Shown here: positions 9,688 through 54,666 of the stretch, piece after piece
How the letters are laid out: the number at the start of each line of letters is the position of its first letter
Numbering within the stretch: the stretch's first letter is position 1
Assembly: GCF_003426945.1 (NCBI RefSeq)
Contig: NZ_QURO01000004.1
Coordinates: 310,001-374,000 of the forward strand
Origin: Thermus sediminis
GTDB taxonomy: Bacteria; Deinococcota; Deinococci; Deinococcales; Thermaceae
Direction of reading: 5' to 3'
Length of the DNA: 64,000 nucleotides
Notes under the pieces: model-generated
Told to the model about the DNA's origin: nothing
Database searches by the model: none
Seen by the model: only the letters and a program-made list of their open reading frames with translations
Translations under genes and position numbers: made by a program

Positions 9688-11421
9688 TTAGCGGGGGATG
9701 GGGTAGCCCTGGGCCTCGAGGACCGCCTCGGCCACCCTCCGCCTCAGGGCCACCAGGTCCACGGGCTCCCGCTTGGTGAGCCTGCGGGCGGCGGAGTAGA
9801 CCACCCGGGCCTCGTCCCCCTCCACCAGCCTGGGCAGGACGGAAAGGGCCCGCACCTGGGCGCGGTCCAGCGCTTGGACCAGGTAAATCCGGGCCATGGC
9901 CTGGGCCAACTCCCCAAGCCGCCTGGCCCTTAGGAGGGCGCTTTCGGCGGCGTAGGCGTCGATCAGGATGTCGGCGGCAGCAGCGAGCACCTCCTGCTCC
10001 TCCTCCACCCCTTGGCCGTACTTCTGGGCCGCCAGGCCCGCCACCGTGAGGAAGAGCTTCTTGAGCCCAGCGATCTGGTGGAGCTCCAGGTCCTCGGGCT
10101 CCTCAAAGCTGGGCTCCAGGAGCTCCTTCTGGAGCTTCATGGCCGCCTGGAAGAGGGGAAGTTGCCCTTTCAGGGCCCGGCGGAGGAGCATCCCGGGGAT
10201 GAGGAGGCGGTTGATCTCGTTGGTGCCCTCAAAGATGCGGTTGATGCGGGCGTCCCGGTAGGCCCTCTCAATGGGGTAGTCTTGGGAGTAGCCGTAGCCC
10301 CCGTGGATCTGCACCCCCTCGTCCACCACGTAGTCCAGGACCTCGGAGCCCAGGACCTTGATGATGCTGGCCTCCACGGCGTACTCCTCAATCCCCGCCA
10401 TCACCGCCTCAGGGCCTTCCCTGCCCAAAAGGGCCTCGTCGATGAGGCCCACGGTGCGGTAGACGGCGCTCTCGGCGGCGTAGATGCGGCTCGCCATCTC
10501 CCCCAGCTTCTCCTGGATGAGGCCGAAGCGGGCGATGGGGCGGCCAAACTGCACCCGCTGGGCCGCGTACTGGGCGGAAAGCTCCAAGGCCCGCTTGGCC
10601 CCGCCCACGGCCCCCGCCCCCAGCTTGTAGCGGCCCACGTTGAGGACGTTGAAGGCGATCTTGTGCCCCTTGCCGATCTCGCCCAGGACGTTCTCCACCG
10701 GCACCTTGGCGTCCTCCAGGATCACCTGGCGGGTGCTGGAGGCCTTGATGCCCATCTTCTTCTCCTCGGGGCCAAAGGAGAGGCCCGGGGTGTCCCGCTC
10801 CACCAAGAAGGCGGTGAAGTGCTCCCCGTCCACCTTGGCGAAGACGGTGAAGAGCTGGGCGAAGCCGGCGTTGGAGATCCACTGCTTGACCCCGTTCAGG
10901 ATGTAGTACCTCCCGTCCTCGGAGAGGGTGGCCCGGGTCTTGGCGGAGAGGGCGTCCGAGCCCGAGCCCGGCTCCGTGAGGCAGTAGGCGGCGATCCACT
11001 CCCCAGTGGCCAGCTTGGGGAGGTACTTCCGCTTCTGCTCCTCGGTGCCGAAGTAGACCAGAGGCAAGGTGCCGATGGAGGTGTGGGCCCCGTAGGTGAC
11101 GGAAAAGCCCCCGGTGCCGGAAAGCTCCTCCCCCACCACGGTGGAGACCACCTTGGGCAGGTCCAGGCCCCCGTAGGCCTCGGGGATCTCTATGGCGAGA
11201 AGCCCGAGCTCCCCCGCCTTCCTCATGAGGGGCACGTTGAGGGAAAGCTCCCCGTGCTCCAGGCGCTCCAGGAGGGGAAGGACCTCCCTTTCCACGAAGG
11301 TGCGCGTGGTGCGGGCGATCTCCTTGACGCTCTCGTCAAAGTCCTCCGGGGTGTAAACGCCCTCCGGGCTCTCCAGAATCCAGCCGCCGCCCTTTTGCCA
11401 AAGCTTCTTCTCCTCGGTCAT
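9688..11421 (-). CDS. fadE: Acyl-CoA dehydrogenase
   Basis: A 577-residue FAD-dependent acyl-CoA dehydrogenase, longer than the usual 380-400 residues because of a C-terminal extension, as in very-long-chain and FadE-type enzymes of Gram-positives. Signatures include [39 protein letters not shown] (in parts), [20 protein letters not shown] and [11 protein letters not shown], the last holding the expected catalytic Glu. It carries out the first step of beta-oxidation. It is the third gene of a fadN-fadA-fadE operon; the thiolase gene lies 11 bp upstream. A hairpin repeat directly follows its stop. Confidence 0.92.
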
Positions 11422-42610: not shown

Positions 42611-43909
42611 CTACTTACCCACGCAGAAGTTCTGGAAGACCCGGGCCACCACCTCCTCGGCCACCTCCTTGCCCGTGAGGGCGGAAAGGGCCTTCAAGGC
42701 CTCCTCCAGGGCCAGGCCCATGAGGTCTTCGGGGAGGGCAAGGGCCTCCAAGAGCCTCTCCTTGGCCCGAAGGAGGGCCTCCACCTGCCTTTCCGTGAGG
42801 AGGAACTCCCCACCCCCGCTCCCCAGCAGGGCCTCCTTGAGGGCTTCCTTGAGGTTTTCCATCCCCTCCCCCGTCAGACTGGAGACGGAAAGAAAAGCGG
42901 GGTCCCCCCAAGCGGGAGGGAGGTCGGCCTTGGTGGCCACCCGGATGACCCGCTCCCAGGGAAGGGGGGGCGGCGGGGGCCTGGGGACCGAGCGGTCGGC
43001 CACGTAGAGGACCAGGTCCGCCTCCTCGGCGATCCTGAGGGCCCGCTCCACCCCGGCCCTTTCCAGGGGGTCCTCCGTCTCCCGCACCCCGGCGGTGTCC
43101 AAGGCGACGAGGGGGATGCCGAAGAGCTCCAGGGGGGCCTCCAGGTAGTCCCGGGTGGTGCCGGGGATGGGGGAAACCAGGGCCCGCTCGTAGCCCAAAA
43201 GGGCGTTCAGGAGGGAGCTTTTCCCGGCGTTGGGGGCCCCGACCAGGGCCAGGCGGGCCCCCTTCTGGGCTAGGCGGGAGGCCTTGGCCTGGGCCAAAAG
43301 GCCCTCTACCTCCTCTAAGGCCTCCCGGATGGTCCCTTCCGCCCGGTGGGGCTCCACCCCCTCCTCGGGGTAGTCCAGGAGGGCCTGGATGTGGGCCAGG
43401 AGGTCCAGAAGCCTCTCCTCCAGGGCGGCGATCCTGCGGGAAAGGGCCCCCTCGAGGCCCCTCAGGGCCTGCCTCCTGGCCAGCTCCCCTTCCGCCTCTA
43501 CCAGAGCCAGGACCGCCTCCGCCTGGGCCAGGTCCAGCCTGCCGTTCAGATAGGCCCTCAGGGTGAACTCCCCCCGCCCGGCAGGCCTCGCCCCCAGGCC
43601 CACCAGGACCTCCATCACCCGCTTCAAGACCGCTGGGGAACCGTGGGTCTGGAACTCCACCAGGTCCTCCCCGGTGTAGGAGCGGGGGGCGCGGAAGACC
43701 AGGAGGAGGGCCTGGTCTATGGTCTCCCCGGTCCAGGGGTCCACCACCTCCCCAACGGTGAAGCGCCCCCCCTTCAAGCGCCTGGGGTCCTTCCCCCGGA
43801 AGGCTTGGGCGGCGATCTCCAAAGCGCCTTCCCCCGAGAGGCGCACCACCCCGATGGCTCCCTTGCCGGGAGGGGTGGCGATGGCGCAGATGGGGTCCTT
43901 GAGGTTCAC
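42611..43909 (-). CDS. mnmE: tRNA uridine-5-carboxymethylaminomethyl modification GTPase
   Basis: A 432-residue MnmE (TrmE). The N-terminal folate-binding domain opens [19 protein letters not shown]; the G domain has Walker [17 protein letters not shown], switch [23 protein letters not shown] and a TKAD motif; the protein ends FQNFCVGK, the C(I/L/V)GK signature. With MnmG it modifies wobble U34. The start codon overlaps the stop of hicA (ATGA), so mnmE is the third gene of a hicB-hicA-mnmE transcript. Confidence 0.95.
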
Positions 43910-44118
43910 GCCTGGCGAAACTCCTCCTCGGTGATGCCCGCTTGCTTCAGGATGGCCCGGAAAAGGCCCCAGGGAATCTCCCCGGAGTGCATGGGCAACA
44001 CCACCCTTCGGCCATCTGGGTGCACATAAACCCTATGCCCGCCCTTACCTCTTCGCGGCAGGAGTTGGAAACCCAACCGCTCCAGCTTGCGGGCCACCTC
44101 GGAAGTCTTAGGCGGCAT
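43906..44118 (-). CDS. hicA: HicA-family mRNA interferase toxin
   Basis: A 70-residue dsRBD-like HicA toxin: [20 protein letters not shown], active-site His in [20 protein letters not shown], and the C-terminal [17 protein letters not shown]. HicA cleaves mRNA and is neutralised by HicB. It overlaps hicB by 11 bp upstream and mnmE by four bases downstream, so all three genes are coupled. Full length and all conserved residues suggest it is functional. Confidence 0.9.
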
Positions 44119-44329
44119 CCAGGGAGACCTGGGCCACCGCCACGTCGGGAGGCGGAGCTTCCCCTAGGGCCTCGAGGGCTTCCAGGGCAGCCGCCAACGC
44201 GTCCTTGGCGTTTTCCAGAGCCTCTTCCGGGGAGTGCCCGAAGGTGACGCACCAAGGGATAGCGGGCACCTCGGCCAGCCACACCCCGGGGGTCTCCGGG
44301 TCGGGACGAAGGAGGACGGTGTAGCGCAT
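44108..44329 (-). CDS. hicB: HicB-family antitoxin
   Basis: A 73-residue Hic[41 protein letters not shown] and [17 protein letters not shown], the partial RNase H-like antitoxin fold without an added C-terminal DNA-binding domain. ATG 44329 is preferred over ATG 44338 because a perfect TATAAT (44337-44342, minus strand) lies seven bases before it and overlaps the alternative start. That -10 also overlaps the hemL stop. hicA follows with an 11-bp overlap (antitoxin first). Confidence 0.87.
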
Positions 44330-44337
44330 CCTTCCCA

Positions 44338-45612
44338 TTATAGAGCCTGATCCAGGGCCTCGAGGGTCCTCGCCACCTCCTCTTCCCCGTGGGCGATGGA
44401 GAGGAAGGCGGCCTCAAAGTTGGAGGGCGGCCAGTACACGCCCCGGGCCAGGAGGCCGTGGAAGAAGCGCTTGAAGAGCTCCAAATCCGTGCGCTTGGCC
44501 TCGGCGAAGGTGCGCACGGGGCCTTCGGTGAAGAAGACGGTGAGCATGGACCCCACCCGGTTCACCGCGTGGGGCACGCCCTTTCTGGCGAGGACCTCCC
44601 CTAGCCCCTCCTCCAGCCTGGCCCCCACCTCCTCCAGGTGGGCGTAGAAATGGGGGTTCGCCTCCAGGGTCTCCAGGGTGGCCAGGCCCGAGGCCATGGC
44701 CAGGGGGTTCCCGGAGAGGGTCCCCGCCTGGTACACAGGGCCTAGAGGGGCCACCTTCTCCATGATCTCCCGCCTTCCCCCGTAGGCGGCGGCGGGGAGC
44801 CCCCCGCCCAGGACCTTGCCCAGAGCGACGAGGTCGGGCTTGAGGCCAAAACGCTCCGTGGCCCCGCCTGGGGCCAGGCGGAAGCCCGTCATCACCTCGT
44901 CGGCGATGAGGAGGGCCCCGTAGGCCTGGGCCTCGTGGAGGGCCTTGAGGAAGTCCTCCGTGGGGACCAGGACCCCGGCGTTCCCCACCACGGGCTCAAA
45001 GATGATGGCGGCGATCTCCTCGCCCCGGCGCTTCAGGACCTCCCGGAGGCCCTCGGCGTCGTTGTACTTCAGGACCAGGGTGAGCCGGGCGTAGGCCTCG
45101 GGAACCCCGGCCGAGGAGGGCACCCCCAGGGTGAGGGCCCCGCTTCCCGCCTCCACCAGGAGGCCGTCCGCGTGGCCGTGGTAGTTGCCCCGGAACTTGA
45201 CGATGAGGTCCCGGCCCGTAAACCCCCGGGCGAGCCTCAGGGCGCTCATGGTGGCCTCCGTCCCCGAGCTCACGAAGCGCACCAGCTCCACGCCGGGGTA
45301 GGCCCGCTTCACCTTCTTGGCCAGCTCCACCTCGAGGGGGTGGGGGGCCCCGAAGGTGAGGCCCCGCTCCAGGGTCTCCCGCACCCGGGCGAGGACCCTA
45401 GGGTGGGCGTGGCCCAGGATCAGGGGCCCCCAGCTCAGCACGTAGTCCAGGTAGCGGTTCCCGTCTATGTCCCACACATAGGCCCCCTCACCCCGCACCA
45501 GGTAAGGGGGGGTCCCCCCCACCGCCCTGAAGGCCCGCACCGGGCTGGACACGCCCCCGGGGATATGCCTTTTCGCCTCCTGGAAGTAGGCCTCAGAGAT
45601 GGGCCGCTCCAT
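44338..45612 (-). CDS. hemL: Glutamate-1-semialdehyde 2,1-aminomutase
   Basis: A 424-residue class III PLP aminotransferase that makes 5-aminolevulinate. Landmarks: AKRHIPGGVSSPVRAFRAVG, SSGTEATMSALRLARGFTGR, KFRGNYHGHADGLLVEAGSG, DEVMTGFR, PLP Lys in ALGKVLGGGLPAAAYGG, and YQAGTLSGNPLAMASG. It starts at ATG 45612, seven bases after -10 TAGAGT (45620-45625, minus strand). The hicBA promoter overlaps its stop. Confidence 0.96.
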   Translation of the reverse strand: MERPISEAYFQEAKRHIPGGVSSPVRAFRAVGGTPPYLVRGEGAYVWDIDGNRYLDYVLSWGPLILGHAHPRVLARVRETLERGLTFGAPHPLEVELAKKVKRAYPGVELVRFVSSGTEATMSALRLARGFTGRDLIVKFRGNYHGHADGLLVEAGSGALTLGVPSSAGVPEAYARLTLVLKYNDAEGLREVLKRRGEEIAAIIFEPVVGNAGVLVPTEDFLKALHEAQAYGALLIADEVMTGFRLAPGGATERFGLKPDLVALGKVLGGGLPAAAYGGRREIMEKVAPLGPVYQAGTLSGNPLAMASGLATLETLEANPHFYAHLEEVGARLEEGLGEVLARKGVPHAVNRVGSMLTVFFTEGPVRTFAEAKRTDLELFKRFFHGLLARGVYWPPSNFEAAFLSIAHGEEEVARTLEALDQAL

Positions 45613-49450: not shown

Positions 49451-50356
49451 TTATGCCTGGGGGGAGGGGTCCTTGAAGAGGCGGAGGAAGAGGCTTTCCA
49501 GGCTGGGCGTCCCCTGGGAGACCTCGAGGGCCTCCACAGGAAGCCTTGCCAGGGCCTCCCTCAGGGCTTCCCAGGGCCCCAGAAAGAAGAGACGGTCCGG
49601 GGCCTCAACCAGCCACTCCGGCCCCAAGGCCCCCGCCAGGGCCTCCGCCTTGGGCTCGGCAATGCGCACCCGGTACCCCTCCCCGGCCCACTCCCGGAGG
49701 AGGGACCGGGTGGGGCCCTCCCGCAGCACCTCCCCCCGGTGGAGGAAGGCCACCCGGTCGCTCACCCGCTCCACGCTCTCCAGGTCGTGGGAGGTGAGGA
49801 GGATCCCCCACCCCTCCCCCTTCAGGTCCAGGAGGATGGCCTCCAGCTCCTTGCGGCTCACGGGGTCCAGACCCAGCGTGGGCTCGTCCAGGAGGAGGAA
49901 GCGGGGGTTGAGGGCGAGGGCCAGGGCCAGGGCGGCCTTCTGCTGCATCCCCCGGGAGAGGGAGGCCAGGGGGGCGTGGAGGCGGTCCCTGAGGCCGAAG
50001 CGCTCCAACCAGGCCTCAAACCGGGGCCGCACCTCCCTGGGGGAAAGCCCCCGGATGCCCCCGAAGTAGAGGGCGTTGGTGAGGAGGGAGAGGTTCACGT
50101 AGAGGTTGCGGCTTCCCTCCAGGAGGACGCCGAACTCGTAGCCCTGGGGCCGCTTCCGCCTTTCCCCTTCCACCAGGACCACCTCCCCCCCATCGGGGAG
50201 GAGGAGGCCGAGGACGATCTTGATGAGGGTGGTCTTGCCTGCCCCGTTGGGCCCGAGGAGACCCAGGATCTCCCCAGCGCCAAGCTCCAGGCTCACCCCC
50301 TTCAGGGCCTCCAGCTTTCCGAAGCGCTTGTGAATGTTTTGCACTAAAAGCCGCAT
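49451..50356 (-). CDS. ABC-2 exporter ATP-binding protein
   Basis: A 301-residue ATPase of the DrrA/NatA/antibiotic-export type: Walker A GLLGPNGAGKTTLIKIVLGL, Q-loop GVLLEGSRNLYVN, signature ASLSRGMQQKAALALAL, Walker B FLLLDEPTLGLDPVSRKE and switch TSHDLESVERVSDRV. The C-terminal 80 residues form the domain typical of these exporters. It overlaps the upstream permease stop by one base and is the last gene of a three-gene exporter. The transported molecule is unknown; the small ORF at 51961 upstream is a candidate cargo or relic. Confidence 0.9.
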   Translation of the reverse strand: MRLLVQNIHKRFGKLEALKGVSLELGAGEILGLLGPNGAGKTTLIKIVLGLLLPDGGEVVLVEGERRKRPQGYEFGVLLEGSRNLYVNLSLLTNALYFGGIRGLSPREVRPRFEAWLERFGLRDRLHAPLASLSRGMQQKAALALALALNPRFLLLDEPTLGLDPVSRKELEAILLDLKGEGWGILLTSHDLESVERVSDRVAFLHRGEVLREGPTRSLLREWAGEGYRVRIAEPKAEALAGALGPEWLVEAPDRLFFLGPWEALREALARLPVEALEVSQGTPSLESLFLRLFKDPSPQA

Positions 50357-51117
50357 CAGTACCTCCCCAAAAGACCCCTTCGCCGCACCACAGCGTAGGT
50401 CCAGGCCATGGCGAGAAAGCCCAGGACCAGGAATAGGAAAGCCTGGAGGGCGGCTAGGCCCACCAGGGCTAAGGACAGTCCCTCCCCCGTAAGGCCGATC
50501 CGGAGGAGGTAGGCCCCCGGGGCGAAGGGCAGGGGGACCATCCAGGGCTCAAACCGGACCAGGGAGAAGAAGTAGGGCAGGAAGAGGAACCGAACTATGG
50601 TGAAGAAACTATCCACCTCCTTGAAGTAGAGGGCCAGGGCCCCCATACCGAGGGCGAAGCCCAAGGCGGCGAGGTACAGGGGCAAAAGCCCCAGGGGCCA
50701 CCAGGGGGCGGGGGCGAGCCGCACCCCTAGGAGAAGAGCGAGAGGGAGGAGGATAAGGAGGCCGGTGGCGATGCCCGTAAGACCCCGCACGAAGGAGCGC
50801 AGGAGGAGCTGCCAAAGGAGCCCTCCCCGGGCTAGGCCCAGGTGCTCCAGGGTGCCTCGGGCGGCCTCGGACTGCACGCTGTACGCCACGGACTGAAAGG
50901 TGCCCACCACCAGGTTGAAGGCGGCGAAGAGGAGGAGTAAGGGGCCCACATCCAGGCCCAGGCTCGCCAGGCCTTCAGGGGTCAGGTTCTCCAGGCCAAG
51001 GACCATGGAATAGAAGAAGAGAACCGAGGCCAAGAGCCCCGCTACCAGTTCAAACCAGTAGCGCTTGGTCAGGATCCACTCCAGGAGAAGCTCGCTCCAA
51101 AGTTGCCAGAGCATCAC
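50356..51117 (-). CDS. ABC-2 exporter permease (second)
   Basis: A 253-residue membrane protein with six hydrophobic segments: LLEWILTKRYWFELVAGLLA, GTLEHLGLARGGLLWQLLLR, LAALGFALGMGALALYFKEV, PYFFSLVRFEPWMVPLPFAP. It is a paralogue of the preceding permease with the same loop motifs (GTLEHxxLAR, ALYFKEVDSFFT, PFAPGAYLLR), so the exporter is a heterodimer. Five bases separate it from the first permease and it overlaps the ATPase gene by one base. Confidence 0.87.
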   Translation of the reverse strand: MMLWQLWSELLLEWILTKRYWFELVAGLLASVLFFYSMVLGLENLTPEGLASLGLDVGPLLLLFAAFNLVVGTFQSVAYSVQSEAARGTLEHLGLARGGLLWQLLLRSFVRGLTGIATGLLILLPLALLLGVRLAPAPWWPLGLLPLYLAALGFALGMGALALYFKEVDSFFTIVRFLFLPYFFSLVRFEPWMVPLPFAPGAYLLRIGLTGEGLSLALVGLAALQAFLFLVLGFLAMAWTYAVVRRRGLLGRY

Positions 51118-51122
51118 GCCTC

Positions 51123-51893
51123 CTAGAACCTACCCAATATACCCCGCCTACGGACCAGGCGGTACATGTAGACCATGGCGAGAAGCCCGGCGGCGAGCAA
51201 GAAAAGACCCTGAAAAAGGGCCAGGAGGAAAATGCCCCGGTCAAACTCCCCGCCCGTGAGCCCAAGCCGCACCAGGTGGGCTCCCGGGGCAAAGGGGAGG
51301 TAGGCCATGTAGGGCTGCCAGTGGATGAAGGAAAGGAAGTAAGGGATGAGGGTGAACTGGATGAGGGTGAACAGGCTGTTGATTTCCCTGAAGTAGAGGG
51401 TGAGGGCTCCCATGAGGAGGGAAATCCCTATCGCCGCCAGCAAGACCGCGCCCACCCCAAGAGGCCACCAGGAGGTGACTTTTAGGGTAACCCCCGTCAG
51501 GGCCAGGAGGATCAGGAGAACCAATAGAGTTTGTCCCAGGATGACGGTACCGTGGGCTAGGAGCCTCATGAAGAGCTGGTACAGCAGGCCTCTCCGGGCT
51601 AGGGCCATGTGCTCCAAGGTGCCTTGGAGTGCATCGGTGCGTATGAAGTGGTAAACGGAAACGTAGAAGCCTAAGGTCAGCTGGAGTACCGCATAAATCA
51701 ACACCAGGGAGGAGGTTCCCGGCAGGTTTTCACCGGGCACCAGATTCCGGACGGCCACCAGAATGGCGTAGAAGTACACCAGGTCCACGAAGGTGCCGAC
51801 CAGGTTGTTGAACCAATACCGCCTTAGAATCTGGGCCGCAAAGATAAACTCCGCTTGGAGTTGGGTGAGACCGATTTTCATTTTGCTAACCAT
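51123..51893 (-). CDS. ABC-2 exporter permease (first)
   Basis: About 256 residues with six hydrophobic segments: FAAQILRRYWFNNLVGTFVD, GTLEHMALARRGLLYQLFMR, LTLYFREINSLFTLIQFTL, PYLLxF-type loop and PFAPGAHLVRLGLTGGEF. Start is uncertain: ATG 51893 (MVSKMK) or ATG 51881 (MKIGLT); neither has a good SD. Codon use is somewhat less GC-rich than the core genes. A large hairpin lies 32 bp upstream between it and the small ORF. Confidence 0.85.
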   Translation of the reverse strand: MVSKMKIGLTQLQAEFIFAAQILRRYWFNNLVGTFVDLVYFYAILVAVRNLVPGENLPGTSSLVLIYAVLQLTLGFYVSVYHFIRTDALQGTLEHMALARRGLLYQLFMRLLAHGTVILGQTLLVLLILLALTGVTLKVTSWWPLGVGAVLLAAIGISLLMGALTLYFREINSLFTLIQFTLIPYFLSFIHWQPYMAYLPFAPGAHLVRLGLTGGEFDRGIFLLALFQGLFLLAAGLLAMVYMYRLVRRRGILGRF

Positions 51894-51924
51894 AGCTCTA
51901 CACAAACGGATTCGTAGGAACATA

Positions 51925-51952
51925 GGGGCCGGAGCCATTTGAATCCGGCCCC
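51925..51952 (-). terminator. Intergenic hairpin between small ORF and exporter (attenuator-like)
   Basis: Nine-base arms GGGGCCGGA / TCCGGCCCC with a ten-base loop, no T-run after it on the minus strand. Its position between a short SD-led gene and downstream transporter genes resembles the partial terminator used in peptide operons to raise precursor over transporter expression. Confidence 0.55.
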
Positions 51953-51960
51953 AAGGTTGC

Positions 51961-52176
51961 TCAGCTGAGCAGCCCTAACCCTTGCCGTTTACTTGACCCC
52001 ATTCTCGCCGCAATTCTTCCCGCAGATGAAAGGGAGTTGAAGGCGAGCTTCTCGCCCGTAGGCAGGGTGTGGAAGTGGTTGAAGCGGCTCGGCTTATAGG
52101 TCACCCCTCCCTGGGTTAGCGCTGCGGCGGGTTCCTGAAGGTTCACCGTAGGCAACTGCAGCATCTCCTCTTGCAT
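51961..52176 (-). CDS. Short ORF (71 aa) resembling the N-terminus of radical SAM/SPASM maturases; RiPP-related relic or precursor
   Basis: Starts at ATG 52176 seven bases after AGAGGTG, one of the few SD-led starts in the region. The first 24 residues are leader-like (QEEMLQLPTVNLQEP). The middle reads YKPSRFNHFHTLPTGEKLAF then NSLSSA, which matches the conserved opening of many radical SAM/SPASM peptide maturases (RxN, dG, fNsLsgA). No Cys and no radical SAM CxxxCxxC follow; the C-terminus is short and basic. Deleting one G near 52020 would instead give EELRREWGQVNGKG and a stop. Either a truncated maturase or a peptide precursor. Composition is less GC-rich than neighbours. Confidence 0.5.
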   Translation of the reverse strand: MQEEMLQLPTVNLQEPAAALTQGGVTYKPSRFNHFHTLPTGEKLAFNSLSSAGRIAARMGSSKRQGLGLLS

Positions 52177-52463
52177 GCTCTTTCACCTCTCTTGACCACC
52201 TTCAGGCTGACCTTAGGGTAGCAAGGGGAAGGTAACGCCCACGTAACTCAGGAAGCTCTCATAAAGGCTCCTTGGCGTTACGCGGAGGTTATGTAGGCCC
52301 AGGGAGCCTCCAAACACACGGTTCCTAGGGCTTCTCCTCGCCCTCCTCGAGGGCTCTTGGGTCCTTCCCCAGTGCCTCACCCCCCACTGCCCGCCCCCGG
52401 GGCTTGGGCTCTAAGCGCCACTTCGGCTTTGCAACATGATGCCCAAGCCGGGGCTGCGGGAAG
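52177..52463. other. Intergenic region with inverted repeat, no gene seen
   Basis: No convincing gene. Inverted arms GTAACGCC (52232-52239) and GGCGTTAC (52274-52281) are separated by 34 bp and lie upstream of the small ORF, where a regulator could bind. No clear -35/-10 pair was found. The remainder up to the repeat cluster is unremarkable GC-rich sequence. Confidence 0.5.
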
Positions 52464-52577
52464 GCTTTTGGGGGCCCCCACCGCGGCCAAAGCCGCGGTG
52501 GGTTAGCTCAGAAGAACCTCCCAGGAACCCCTTTCCGGGGCCCCCATGCTGGCTTGGGCCAGCATGGGGTGGTGTTA
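52464..52577. repeat. Palindromic repeat cluster, copy C (units 1 and 2)
   Basis: Unit 1 (52537-52574) is CCCCATGCTGGC / GCCAGCATGGGG abutting the stop codon of the regulator gene. Unit 2 (52464-52504) is CCCACCGCGGC / GCCGCGGTGGG in the opposite orientation to copy A. Between them AGCTCAGAAGAACCTCCCAG matches the flank of copy A (AGCTCAGAAAAGCCTCCCGG), showing that the flank belongs to the repeat. Confidence 0.75.
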
Positions 52578-54047
52578 GAGGCCCCACTCCCCCCTGAGCC
52601 TTTCCGCCCGGGCCTGGGCGATGGGAAGGCGGGGGTCCTGGGGCGGGAGCCTCTCCAGGAGGGCCTCCCAGACCTCCAGGTCCTCCCCCAGGCGCTCCGC
52701 CAGGAGGAAGAGGGCGTCCGGGTCCTTGGAGGCCAGCACCGCTTGCCTCAGGGCCTCCTCCAGCTCCAGGCGGAGGGCCTCCACCCCGGGGGCCTGGCTT
52801 TGGGGCAGGAGGGGGCCCTGGTAGCGGGCGAGGGCTCCCCTCAGGTCCCCCTGGCGGAGGGCTTCCCATACCTCCAGGAAGTCCGCCGCAAGGGCCTGGG
52901 CCAGGCGGTAGGGGCGGCTTTCCACGGCAAGCCCCCGCCGCCTCAGGCGCAGGACCTCCATGCGAAGGGCGGGCCCGTTGGCCTCTCCGTAGAGGGCCTG
53001 GGCCAGCTCCTCCCCCTTCCAGCCTTCCCTCCGGGCTAGGAGAAGGACCAGGAGCTCCGCTTGGCGTAGGGGGAGGGGCTCGCCCCCAAGCCTCGGCTCC
53101 CCCAGGGCCCGGAAGTGGGCCGAAGGGGTTGCGGGCCAGAGAAACTCCTGTCCCCGCTTGGAGAGCTCTCCCAGGAGGGGATGGGGCCTCCCCAGGAAGA
53201 GGAGGCCCCGCATGGCCTCCTCCGCTGCCTCCTCTAGGAGGAGGGGGAGGGCCCCAGCCACTCCTTCCCCGTCCCCCCGGTAAAGCCCCTGGGCCAGGGC
53301 GAGGAGGGCCTGGGTGAAGGGCTCTTTGGCCCAGGGCCTCGCCGCCTGGAGAAAGGGGAGGGCTTCCTTCCCAAGGAAGCGCACCCCGGCAGGGGCGAGG
53401 TAGGGAAGGGCGGGAAGAGGGGCCTCCTCCAGGACCTTCCGCAGGTAGGCCCGGGCGGTGGGCTCCTCCCCCTGGAGAAGGCGAAGGTGGGCCATGAGGA
53501 GGCAGGCGTAGAGCCCCACGCCTCCCCTCGCGCTTCTCCCCAGGCTCAGAGGCTCCACCTGGCGGAGGAGGTCGGGGAGGGAAGGCTCCTCCGCCGCGAG
53601 AAGGGCCAGCCAGGCCCACTCCAGGAGGGCGGAGGGGGTGAACCCCCGGGCATGGGCTAAGGCGGCGTAGTCCAAGGCCTCCCACAGGCGGCCGAGCCGC
53701 CTCAGGGTGCGGGCCAGGGCCAGGGCGAGGCGGCCCTGGGCCCGGGGGTCCTCGGTGCGCCGAAGGGCCTCCTCCAGGGCCAGCGCACCCTCCCTTGGGG
53801 GCAGGGCCAGGCCCAGGTGGTAGAGGGTGAGGGGAGTCTGGGCCCTCCGGGCGCCCTCGAGGGCCAGGGCACGGTAGGCCCCGAGGTTTCCCCGCCTCGC
53901 CTCCACGAAGCCGAGAAGGGCGAGGCGCTCCGCCTCCAAAGGGCCCTCCTGGGGAACAAGGAGAAAGGCCAGGGCCTCCTGGTCCCTCCCCTCCTCCAAG
54001 AGGCGGAGGGCGGGGGCCAGGGGGTTCCCCGGAAGCTCCCGGGCCAC
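52575..54047 (-). CDS. TPR-rich transcriptional regulator with C-terminal winged-helix/BTAD-like region
   Basis: A 490-residue protein. Residues 1-330 are Ala/Leu-rich helical repeats (TPR-like). The C-terminal third begins FRALGEPRLGGEPLPLRQAE and LLVLLLARREGWKGEELAQALYG, a trans_reg_C/SARP-like winged helix, followed by RMEVLRLRRRGLAVESRPYRL and a BTAD-like helical part (GDLRGALARYQGPLLPQSQA). This suggests a SARP/LuxR-large-type activator without an NTPase domain. It starts GTG 54047, six bases after -10 TAAAAT (54054-54059, minus strand). It lies between repeat copies C and D. Targets are unknown; the inverted repeat at 52232 is a nearby candidate. Confidence 0.72.
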   Translation of the reverse strand: MARELPGNPLAPALRLLEEGRDQEALAFLLVPQEGPLEAERLALLGFVEARRGNLGAYRALALEGARRAQTPLTLYHLGLALPPREGALALEEALRRTEDPRAQGRLALALARTLRRLGRLWEALDYAALAHARGFTPSALLEWAWLALLAAEEPSLPDLLRQVEPLSLGRSARGGVGLYACLLMAHLRLLQGEEPTARAYLRKVLEEAPLPALPYLAPAGVRFLGKEALPFLQAARPWAKEPFTQALLALAQGLYRGDGEGVAGALPLLLEEAAEEAMRGLLFLGRPHPLLGELSKRGQEFLWPATPSAHFRALGEPRLGGEPLPLRQAELLVLLLARREGWKGEELAQALYGEANGPALRMEVLRLRRRGLAVESRPYRLAQALAADFLEVWEALRQGDLRGALARYQGPLLPQSQAPGVEALRLELEEALRQAVLASKDPDALFLLAERLGEDLEVWEALLERLPPQDPRLPIAQARAERLRGEWGL

Positions 54048-54100: not shown

Positions 54101-54194
54101 AGCCTCCTCCTGGTCCTGTTTCGGGTATCCCGTATTGCGAAGCCCCTGTGTGGGGGCTGAACGCCACCTGCCATATAGGGTGTACAGTGAAGAC

Positions 54195-54419
54195 ATGGAG
54201 AAGACCACCCTCTACCTTCCCCCAGAGCTTCACCGAGCCCTAAGGGAAGCCGCGCGGCGGGAGGGCAAAAGCCAGGCGGATCTCATCCGGGAGGCCCTAG
54301 CGGCCTACCTCGCCCAGCGCCAAAGGCCCCCCTTTCGCTCCTTGGGCGCAGGCGAGGACGAGGAACTCTCCGGCCGCACCTCTGAGGCTTGGCTGGAAAG
54401 GGCCTGGTCTGAGCGATGA
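54195..54419 (+). CDS. Ribbon-helix-helix antitoxin (VapB/CopG type)
   Basis: A 74-residue RHH protein: KTTLYLPPELHRALREAARR followed by EGKSQADLIREALAAYLAQR, the beta strand and two helices of MetJ/Arc/CopG antitoxins, then a toxin-binding tail SGRTSEAWLERAWSER. ATG 54195 is six bases after -10 TACAGT (54183-54188). A truncated PIN toxin gene overlaps its stop, so the antitoxin appears orphaned. Confidence 0.83.
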   Translation: MEKTTLYLPPELHRALREAARREGKSQADLIREALAAYLAQRQRPPFRSLGAGEDEELSGRTSEAWLERAWSER

Positions 54420-54666
54420 TCACCTGGGGCTCAGGGCCTTGGAGGCCTTCCTTCAAGACCTCGAGGCCAGGGCCTTCTCCCTGGAGTGCGGGGAAGAGGA
54501 CCTGCCGCGCGTTAGGGAGCTGGTGGCCCGGTACCAGGACCTCCCCCTGGGCTTCGCCGACGCTGCGGTCATCGCCGTGGCCGAGCGGAGCGGCGGCCTA
54601 GTCCTCAGCCTGGACCGCCACTTTCACGTGGTGGCCCAGGAGGGTACCCTCCGCGTCCTTCCCTAG
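54416..54666 (+). pseudogene. Truncated VapC-like PIN-domain toxin
   Basis: The toxin start ATGATC (54416) overlaps the antitoxin stop, but its frame soon leaves PIN homology. In another frame (about 54418-54666) the C-terminal part of a PIN domain is read: LEAFLQDLEARAFSLECGEE, LGFADAAVIAVAERSGG and VLSLDRHFHVVAQEG. The N-terminal third with the first catalytic Asp is missing, so a deletion of about 150 bp plus frameshift is inferred. The 3' end overlaps the tpiA stop by four bases. Confidence 0.7.

Follow-up and report, generated by a model that had tools for sequence, protein, structure and literature searches.

The 71-codon open reading frame ahead of an ABC-2 exporter in Thermus sediminis is very probably a deletion scar in a radical SAM/SPASM RiPP operon

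What does a short open reading frame (ORF) encode when it stands ahead of an ABC exporter with no modifying enzyme beside it? The question is raised by a locus of Thermus sediminis in contig NZ_QURO01000004.1, of which positions 310,001–374,000, a stretch of 64,000 nucleotides called here the window, were analysed. The initial annotation had described a 71-codon ORF with a strong ribosome site, a GC hairpin without T-run, two paralogous ABC-2 permeases and an ATPase, and had taken the ORF for a precursor or a separate recognition peptide. The elements themselves were all found in place (Table 1). The ATG of the ORF is preceded by AGAGGTGA, and the G+C content is 52–58% across the ORF against 63–74% on its outer sides, as had been noticed.

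Table 1. Features of the locus (positions are those of the window)
Feature	Position	Strand	Basis or remark
ABC transporter ATPase	49451..50356	-	PF00005, 94.3 bits
ABC-2 permease 2	50356..51117	-	Clade found after type-I precursors in relatives
ABC-2 permease 1	51123..51893	-	Start 51893 or 51881; predicted fold
Precursor-exporter hairpin, GGGGCCGGATTCAAATGGCTCCGGCCCC, no T-run	51925..51952	-	Position in relatives; folding
71-codon ORF (very probable deletion scar)	51961..52176	-	Maturase 5' end, then out-of-frame precursor 3' end
Putative precursor gene 3' end, other frame (FICGKNCGENGVK and stop)	51989..52030	-	Rarity of the CGxNCGxN pattern
Maturase gene, codons 1-50	52027..52176	-	76-84% identity to residues 1-50 of intact maturases
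Operon promoter: TAAC-N7-TAAC and GTTAC-N6-GTTACC in 11-bp register, then -10-like TTGCTACC	52217..52291	-	Kept in relatives
Regulator-like gene, 490 aa ("SARP-like" unproven)	52575..54047	-	Adjoins the operon in most relatives

The first part of the ORF belongs to an enzyme. In BLAST, residues 1–50 matched the maturases of other Thermus and nothing was matched beyond residue 50. When the 71-aa sequence was used as query against 27 Thermus genomes, the best matches covered only this first part and lay mostly at the starts of long ORFs with open frames of 478–482 codons, the intact maturases having 476 codons. The string YKPSRFNHFHTLPTGEKLAFN, which had been likened to the N-terminus of radical SAM/SPASM maturases, is a true maturase N-terminus (E 1e-20 to 1e-24), and a chance likeness is excluded; Pfam and NCBIfam searches with the 71-aa ORF gave no match. 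The intact Thermus maturases scored 57.9 bits with PF04055, 54.9 bits with the SPASM profile TIGR04085 and 362.7 bits with their best match, TIGR04463, whose curated cut-off of 525 bits places them as related to that family and outside it as drawn. Their CxxxCxxC motif lies at residues 124–131, and the window stub ends before it. The maturase had been reported missing, and no maturase of this Thermus family was found on any contig of the genome, which thus lacks the enzyme with CxxxCxxC and SPASM domain that a functional cluster would contain.

The arrangement from which the stub comes is preserved in relatives, where the maturase is followed by a Cys-containing precursor, a hairpin, one or more ABC-2 permeases and the ATPase. 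The exporter locus was counted in 17 of the 27 genomes, five of these 17 with an intact maturase. Permease, ATPase, aminotransferase and dehydrogenase genes come after the maturase, or what is left of it, in T. igniterrae (G013), G004 and T. scotoductus (G018), the same setting as in the window. A second, frameshifted maturase copy was noticed in T. igniterrae (L057:12194–13635), and T. composti (G010) has a maturase with a premature TAG or a frameshift (L055:7588–9000). The precursor genes have 28–36 codons and a ribosome site GGAGGTGA, begin right after the maturase stop and share the leader MR[WY]xxKP. Their products were sorted into type I (MRWIVRPSRVQPLGDPGCGGRRPCPTKNPPVLT), type I' (MRWIVKPSRVQPLGDPGCGGRMPAPCPQR), type II (MRWVVKPGLRIAPSGDCGYNCGQNSGCGINTKLW), type III (MRYIVKPTRSAEPLGCGIFICGSNSGPK) and type IV, found in G020 (MRWVRKPSRTSSVNCIIKCIGNCGKNNVEVDE). 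A DNA pattern combining the ribosome site with the leader was located in 13 of the 27 genomes, with one occurrence in each and every time at the operon locus, and was found neither on any contig of the window genome nor in the reversed control. A precursor with leader and Cys-containing core is therefore absent from the T. sediminis locus, where only an out-of-frame 3' end of the core appears to be left.

The homology to the intact syntenic gene breaks off sharply at a junction near 52027, and the sequence past the break resembles the next gene of the intact operon, carrying CGxNCGxN with the hairpin directly after it. The precursor relic has about 11 residues. Its BLOSUM match was modest when compared with all precursor types: 8 of 5000 shuffles did as well, and as high a score was reached by 49 of 3196 other window stretches, so that this comparison is suggestive and not decisive in GC-rich DNA. 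The rarity of the motif and the presence of the leader were therefore used as tests. DNA coding for CGxNCGxN was found at two sites only in the 27 genomes, namely 52001–52024 of the window and the T. igniterrae precursor. When the scar tail was aligned with G020 DNA, only the hairpin stem aligned, with a score common by chance. Judged from sequence, position, motif rarity and the absent leader jointly carry the assignment of the precursor tail, over which the final 21 ORF residues would be an out-of-frame reading.

The flanks of the junction agree with this origin. For the 81-nt hairpin region, a folding energy of -34 kcal/mol was computed (z = -2.8), and an Rfam search returned nothing. The relatives that were folded have a strong hairpin between the precursor stop and the first permease, largely unrelated in sequence; in G008 and G023, it starts at or near the precursor stop. 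Because the position is conserved and the stem core GGGCCGGA/TCCGGCCC is common to the window and G020, which adds TTTTTC after it, the window hairpin was identified as the old precursor-exporter hairpin. Such an element is probably a partial terminator or an mRNA stabiliser that would set the peptide above the exporter. Upstream, the promoter repeats are kept in relatives, the exporter-only loci G009 and G025b included, and this locus is the best match of the pattern in the genome, with 0 mismatches; a sigma-70 promoter scan of the region found none. The initial annotation had spoken of repeats and a SARP-like regulator. A SARP regulator would combine an OmpR-type winged helix with a BTAD domain. 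The 11-bp register of the promoter repeats fits such a regulator without proving one; the label itself was not confirmed, since the regulator-like gene matched none of the Pfam and PDB profiles searched, SARP included. Directly after this gene, at 52478–52570, two palindromes were seen by eye, CCCACCGCGGC..GCCGCGGTGGG and CCCCATGCTGGC..GCCAGCATGGGG, which are probably its terminator region. The window also holds a HicA toxin gene paired with a HicB-like antitoxin gene (43906–44338) and an ORF pair that resembles, by eye, a ribbon-helix-helix antitoxin and a PIN-domain toxin (54135–54666).

These findings together suggested, with a probability of about 0.94, that a deletion within a radical SAM/SPASM RiPP operon left the 71-codon ORF as its scar, because maturase homology ends at codon 50 and a precursor-tail motif follows in another frame, because the leader and the maturase are missing from the genome and the hairpin position is conserved in relatives, and because other Thermus show different maturase breaks here and exporter-only loci keep the promoter. 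The ancestral order would have been promoter, maturase, precursor, hairpin, permease 1, permease 2 and ATPase. A deletion beginning at maturase codon 51 and ending midway through the precursor gene would have removed the entire catalytic part of the maturase together with the precursor leader and the first core residues. It would have spared the promoter, the ribosome site and maturase codons 1–50, whose reading frame now crosses the precursor tail, out of frame with it, to a chance stop. The intact alleles used for comparison come from other Thermus species. As assembled, the locus can now neither make nor modify a peptide. The description of the locus as a partly decayed RiPP-type system has thus held, in view of the maturase stub and precursor tail here and the intact operons elsewhere, and the ORF taken alone is ordinary gene decay in an operon of a known kind.

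One could instead suppose that the 71-aa product works by itself, serving as a recognition element or being a new precursor, and leaves the cell through the neighbouring pump. The strong ribosome site and promoter retained at the ORF speak for this, as does G008, where a short part of the maturase N-terminus has likewise been retained. We consider it highly improbable. What the ORF matches is an enzyme of 476 codons, and this only as far as codon 50; beyond it comes an out-of-frame precursor tail. Other decayed loci keep other parts: T. scotoductus has codons 1–184, T. thermophilus TF24 the 3' half, and G023 and G026 nothing but the 3' tail. Moreover, in the AlphaFold model of the full maturase, a poor one (pLDDT 51), the strands of the stub lead into helices that the stub no longer includes. 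The proposal of a precursor or a separate recognition peptide was accordingly replaced by that of a maturase 5' stub joined out of frame to a precursor 3' end. An artefact of sequencing or assembly, in which case the strain would have the full operon, was weighed as well, since the junction is known from one assembly of one isolate. The assembly reaches 99.9% completeness and has the 2.0-Mb chromosome on a single contig, fragments of the maturase or the leader were not found on any contig, and independent breaks of the maturase gene are common in the genus, all of which leave very little room for such an error.

The breaks in the genus are of several kinds. The T. scotoductus maturase is cut after codon 184, that of G008 has an internal in-frame deletion, and only the 3' tail is left in G023, G017, G020, G024 and G026. 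In T. thermophilus SG0.5JP17-16, insertion sequences follow codon ~103, and in TF24 a transposase gene cuts the maturase at codon ~214, precursor and exporter being whole; five further megaplasmids carry the same maturase fragment as TF24, the fragment alone having been compared. The operon copies with the maturase broken by transposase genes lie on T. thermophilus megaplasmids (L108:3557–8140 and L109:6001–8672). Several maturase-less Thermus have a lipoprotein-like ORF (..GLFAGCGRGAAT.. to ..YYYQWTDLRIYSSRRSSSNSRCF) in the maturase's place, directly before the remnant of its C-terminal tail (L059:1406–2370, L061:8200–9030 and L060:7670–8270). The maturase was thus broken several times independently, with the exporters persisting. 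Other Thermus genomes that have this exporter with an unrelated cargo gene and no radical SAM protein or small ORF had been named as evidence against the initial reading; the outcome is mixed: some relatives have the intact maturase, and others have lost it in ways different from the window.

The exporter of the window remains adjacent to the scar, and its permease and ATPase genes, which the old promoter and hairpin still precede, have open frames. The longest-ORF start of permease 1, at 51938, falls within the hairpin, and the true start is probably one of the two given in Table 1. The two permeases are paralogues with 42% identity and had no match in Pfam or NCBIfam. The model of permease 1 (pLDDT 73.7) matched KpsM, Wzm, TarG and PmtCD in Foldseek, which points to a type-V ABC-2 fold, and together with the ABC ATPase it gives the composition of a type-V ABC-2 exporter. 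A heterodimeric exporter, as had been supposed, is not required, because relatives carry one to three permeases per single ATPase.

The permeases were found to follow the precursor types. In the permease tree, those after type I precursors form one clade (T. altitudinis [G002], G021, G025 and T. thermophilus TF24, with G041, of another family, basal), those after I' precursors a second (G004, G006, G017, G024 and G026) and those after type II precursors a third (T. igniterrae and T. composti), and the permease after the type III precursor is on a separate branch (G023). Window permease 1 pairs with that of G005, and the pair is sister to the type-II clade (support 90/91, not strong). The tree was made without G020 permease 1, which is fragmented in its assembly and is orthologous to window permease 1 (71% identity). 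Some operons stack permeases: in T. igniterrae, precursor II is followed by permeases of the II, I' and I clades in this order, in G004 precursor I' is followed by those of I' and I, and in the window the relic is followed by permease 1 and an I-like permease. Between T. igniterrae and G004, identity is 99.4% over the promoter, the maturase and the leader up to about its seventh codon; T. igniterrae then has ~930 bp (core II, hairpin and its own permease) and G004 ~160 bp, and the identity returns at the I' permease (L052:3803–4755 compared with L053). From its sequence, this difference reads as the exchange of a cargo-exporter cassette, the breakpoint lying in the conserved leader, and core and permease would be cognate, as both move together.

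The repeated loss of the maturase with persistence of the exporters makes retained self-protection the likeliest present role, whereby the window exporter would expel related peptides that other Thermus strains nearby produce. The precedent is one of analogy: in E. coli plasmids, orphan bacteriocin immunity genes have been described in which production was lost and immunity kept (PMC12546727), these genes encoding small immunity proteins whereas the window has an ABC exporter. We put such a use of the exporter slightly short of an even chance. The exporter might instead be a relic that has not yet decayed, or now export another substrate, for which the odds are about level. The exporter dN/dS of 0.18–0.31 against G005 fits constraint, though it measures mostly the time before the deletion and is no proof of present use, which leaves room for a relic. 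Against it, the exporter-only loci with conserved promoter (G009 and G025b) and the persistence of other-cargo permeases in T. igniterrae and G004 argue for selection to keep such exporters. A wider picture is offered tentatively, as a possibility somewhat weaker than retained immunity in the window: Thermus may harbour a peptide-competition family in which core and cognate permease enter a fixed maturase-ATPase frame as one cassette, permeases of earlier cargo being kept downstream as a stacked record of immunity, and the window would hold an allele that makes no peptide yet is immune, its permeases serving two types of cargo.

Among known systems, those of TIGR04463 have Cys-rich precursors or precursors with Cys at every fifth residue (CefA, which adjoins such a maturase on a Methylomagnum plasmid), whereas the Thermus precursors, of 28–36 residues, have few Cys and follow the maturase; the window retains only 50 maturase codons by comparison. 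In G027, of the same order, a 51% identical maturase is followed by two precursors with Cys at about every fifth residue and the leaders MEWIVSP and MKWIVNP (M[EK]WIVxP; L087:2917 and 3176; L100 around 10560–10900). Clo7bot (TIGR04334), a radical SAM/SPASM system for Cys peptides, was the second-best maturase family at 261.6 bits, far under its cut-off of 600 bits. PmtCD exports peptides and also protects its host from them. Exporters of this type (Foldseek 9q1y and 6xjh) have the type-V ABC-2 fold of the modelled permease 1, which is likened to them by fold alone, the polysaccharide exporters KpsM and Wzm being better matches. No paper on the Thermus family was found in literature searches, and a RiPP family with its own permease clade for each precursor type, some operons stacking permeases of other cargo, is apparently undescribed.

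The interest of the locus lies more in the comparison across the genus than in the window ORF itself. The RiPP family spans Thermus and at least one neighbouring family and would supply small, testable peptides from thermophiles. The recurrence of maturase loss without loss of the exporter, and the consistent match between precursor type and adjacent permease, would make it a clean system for asking if cargo and exporter-immunity evolve together as one unit, and if non-producers retain immunity.
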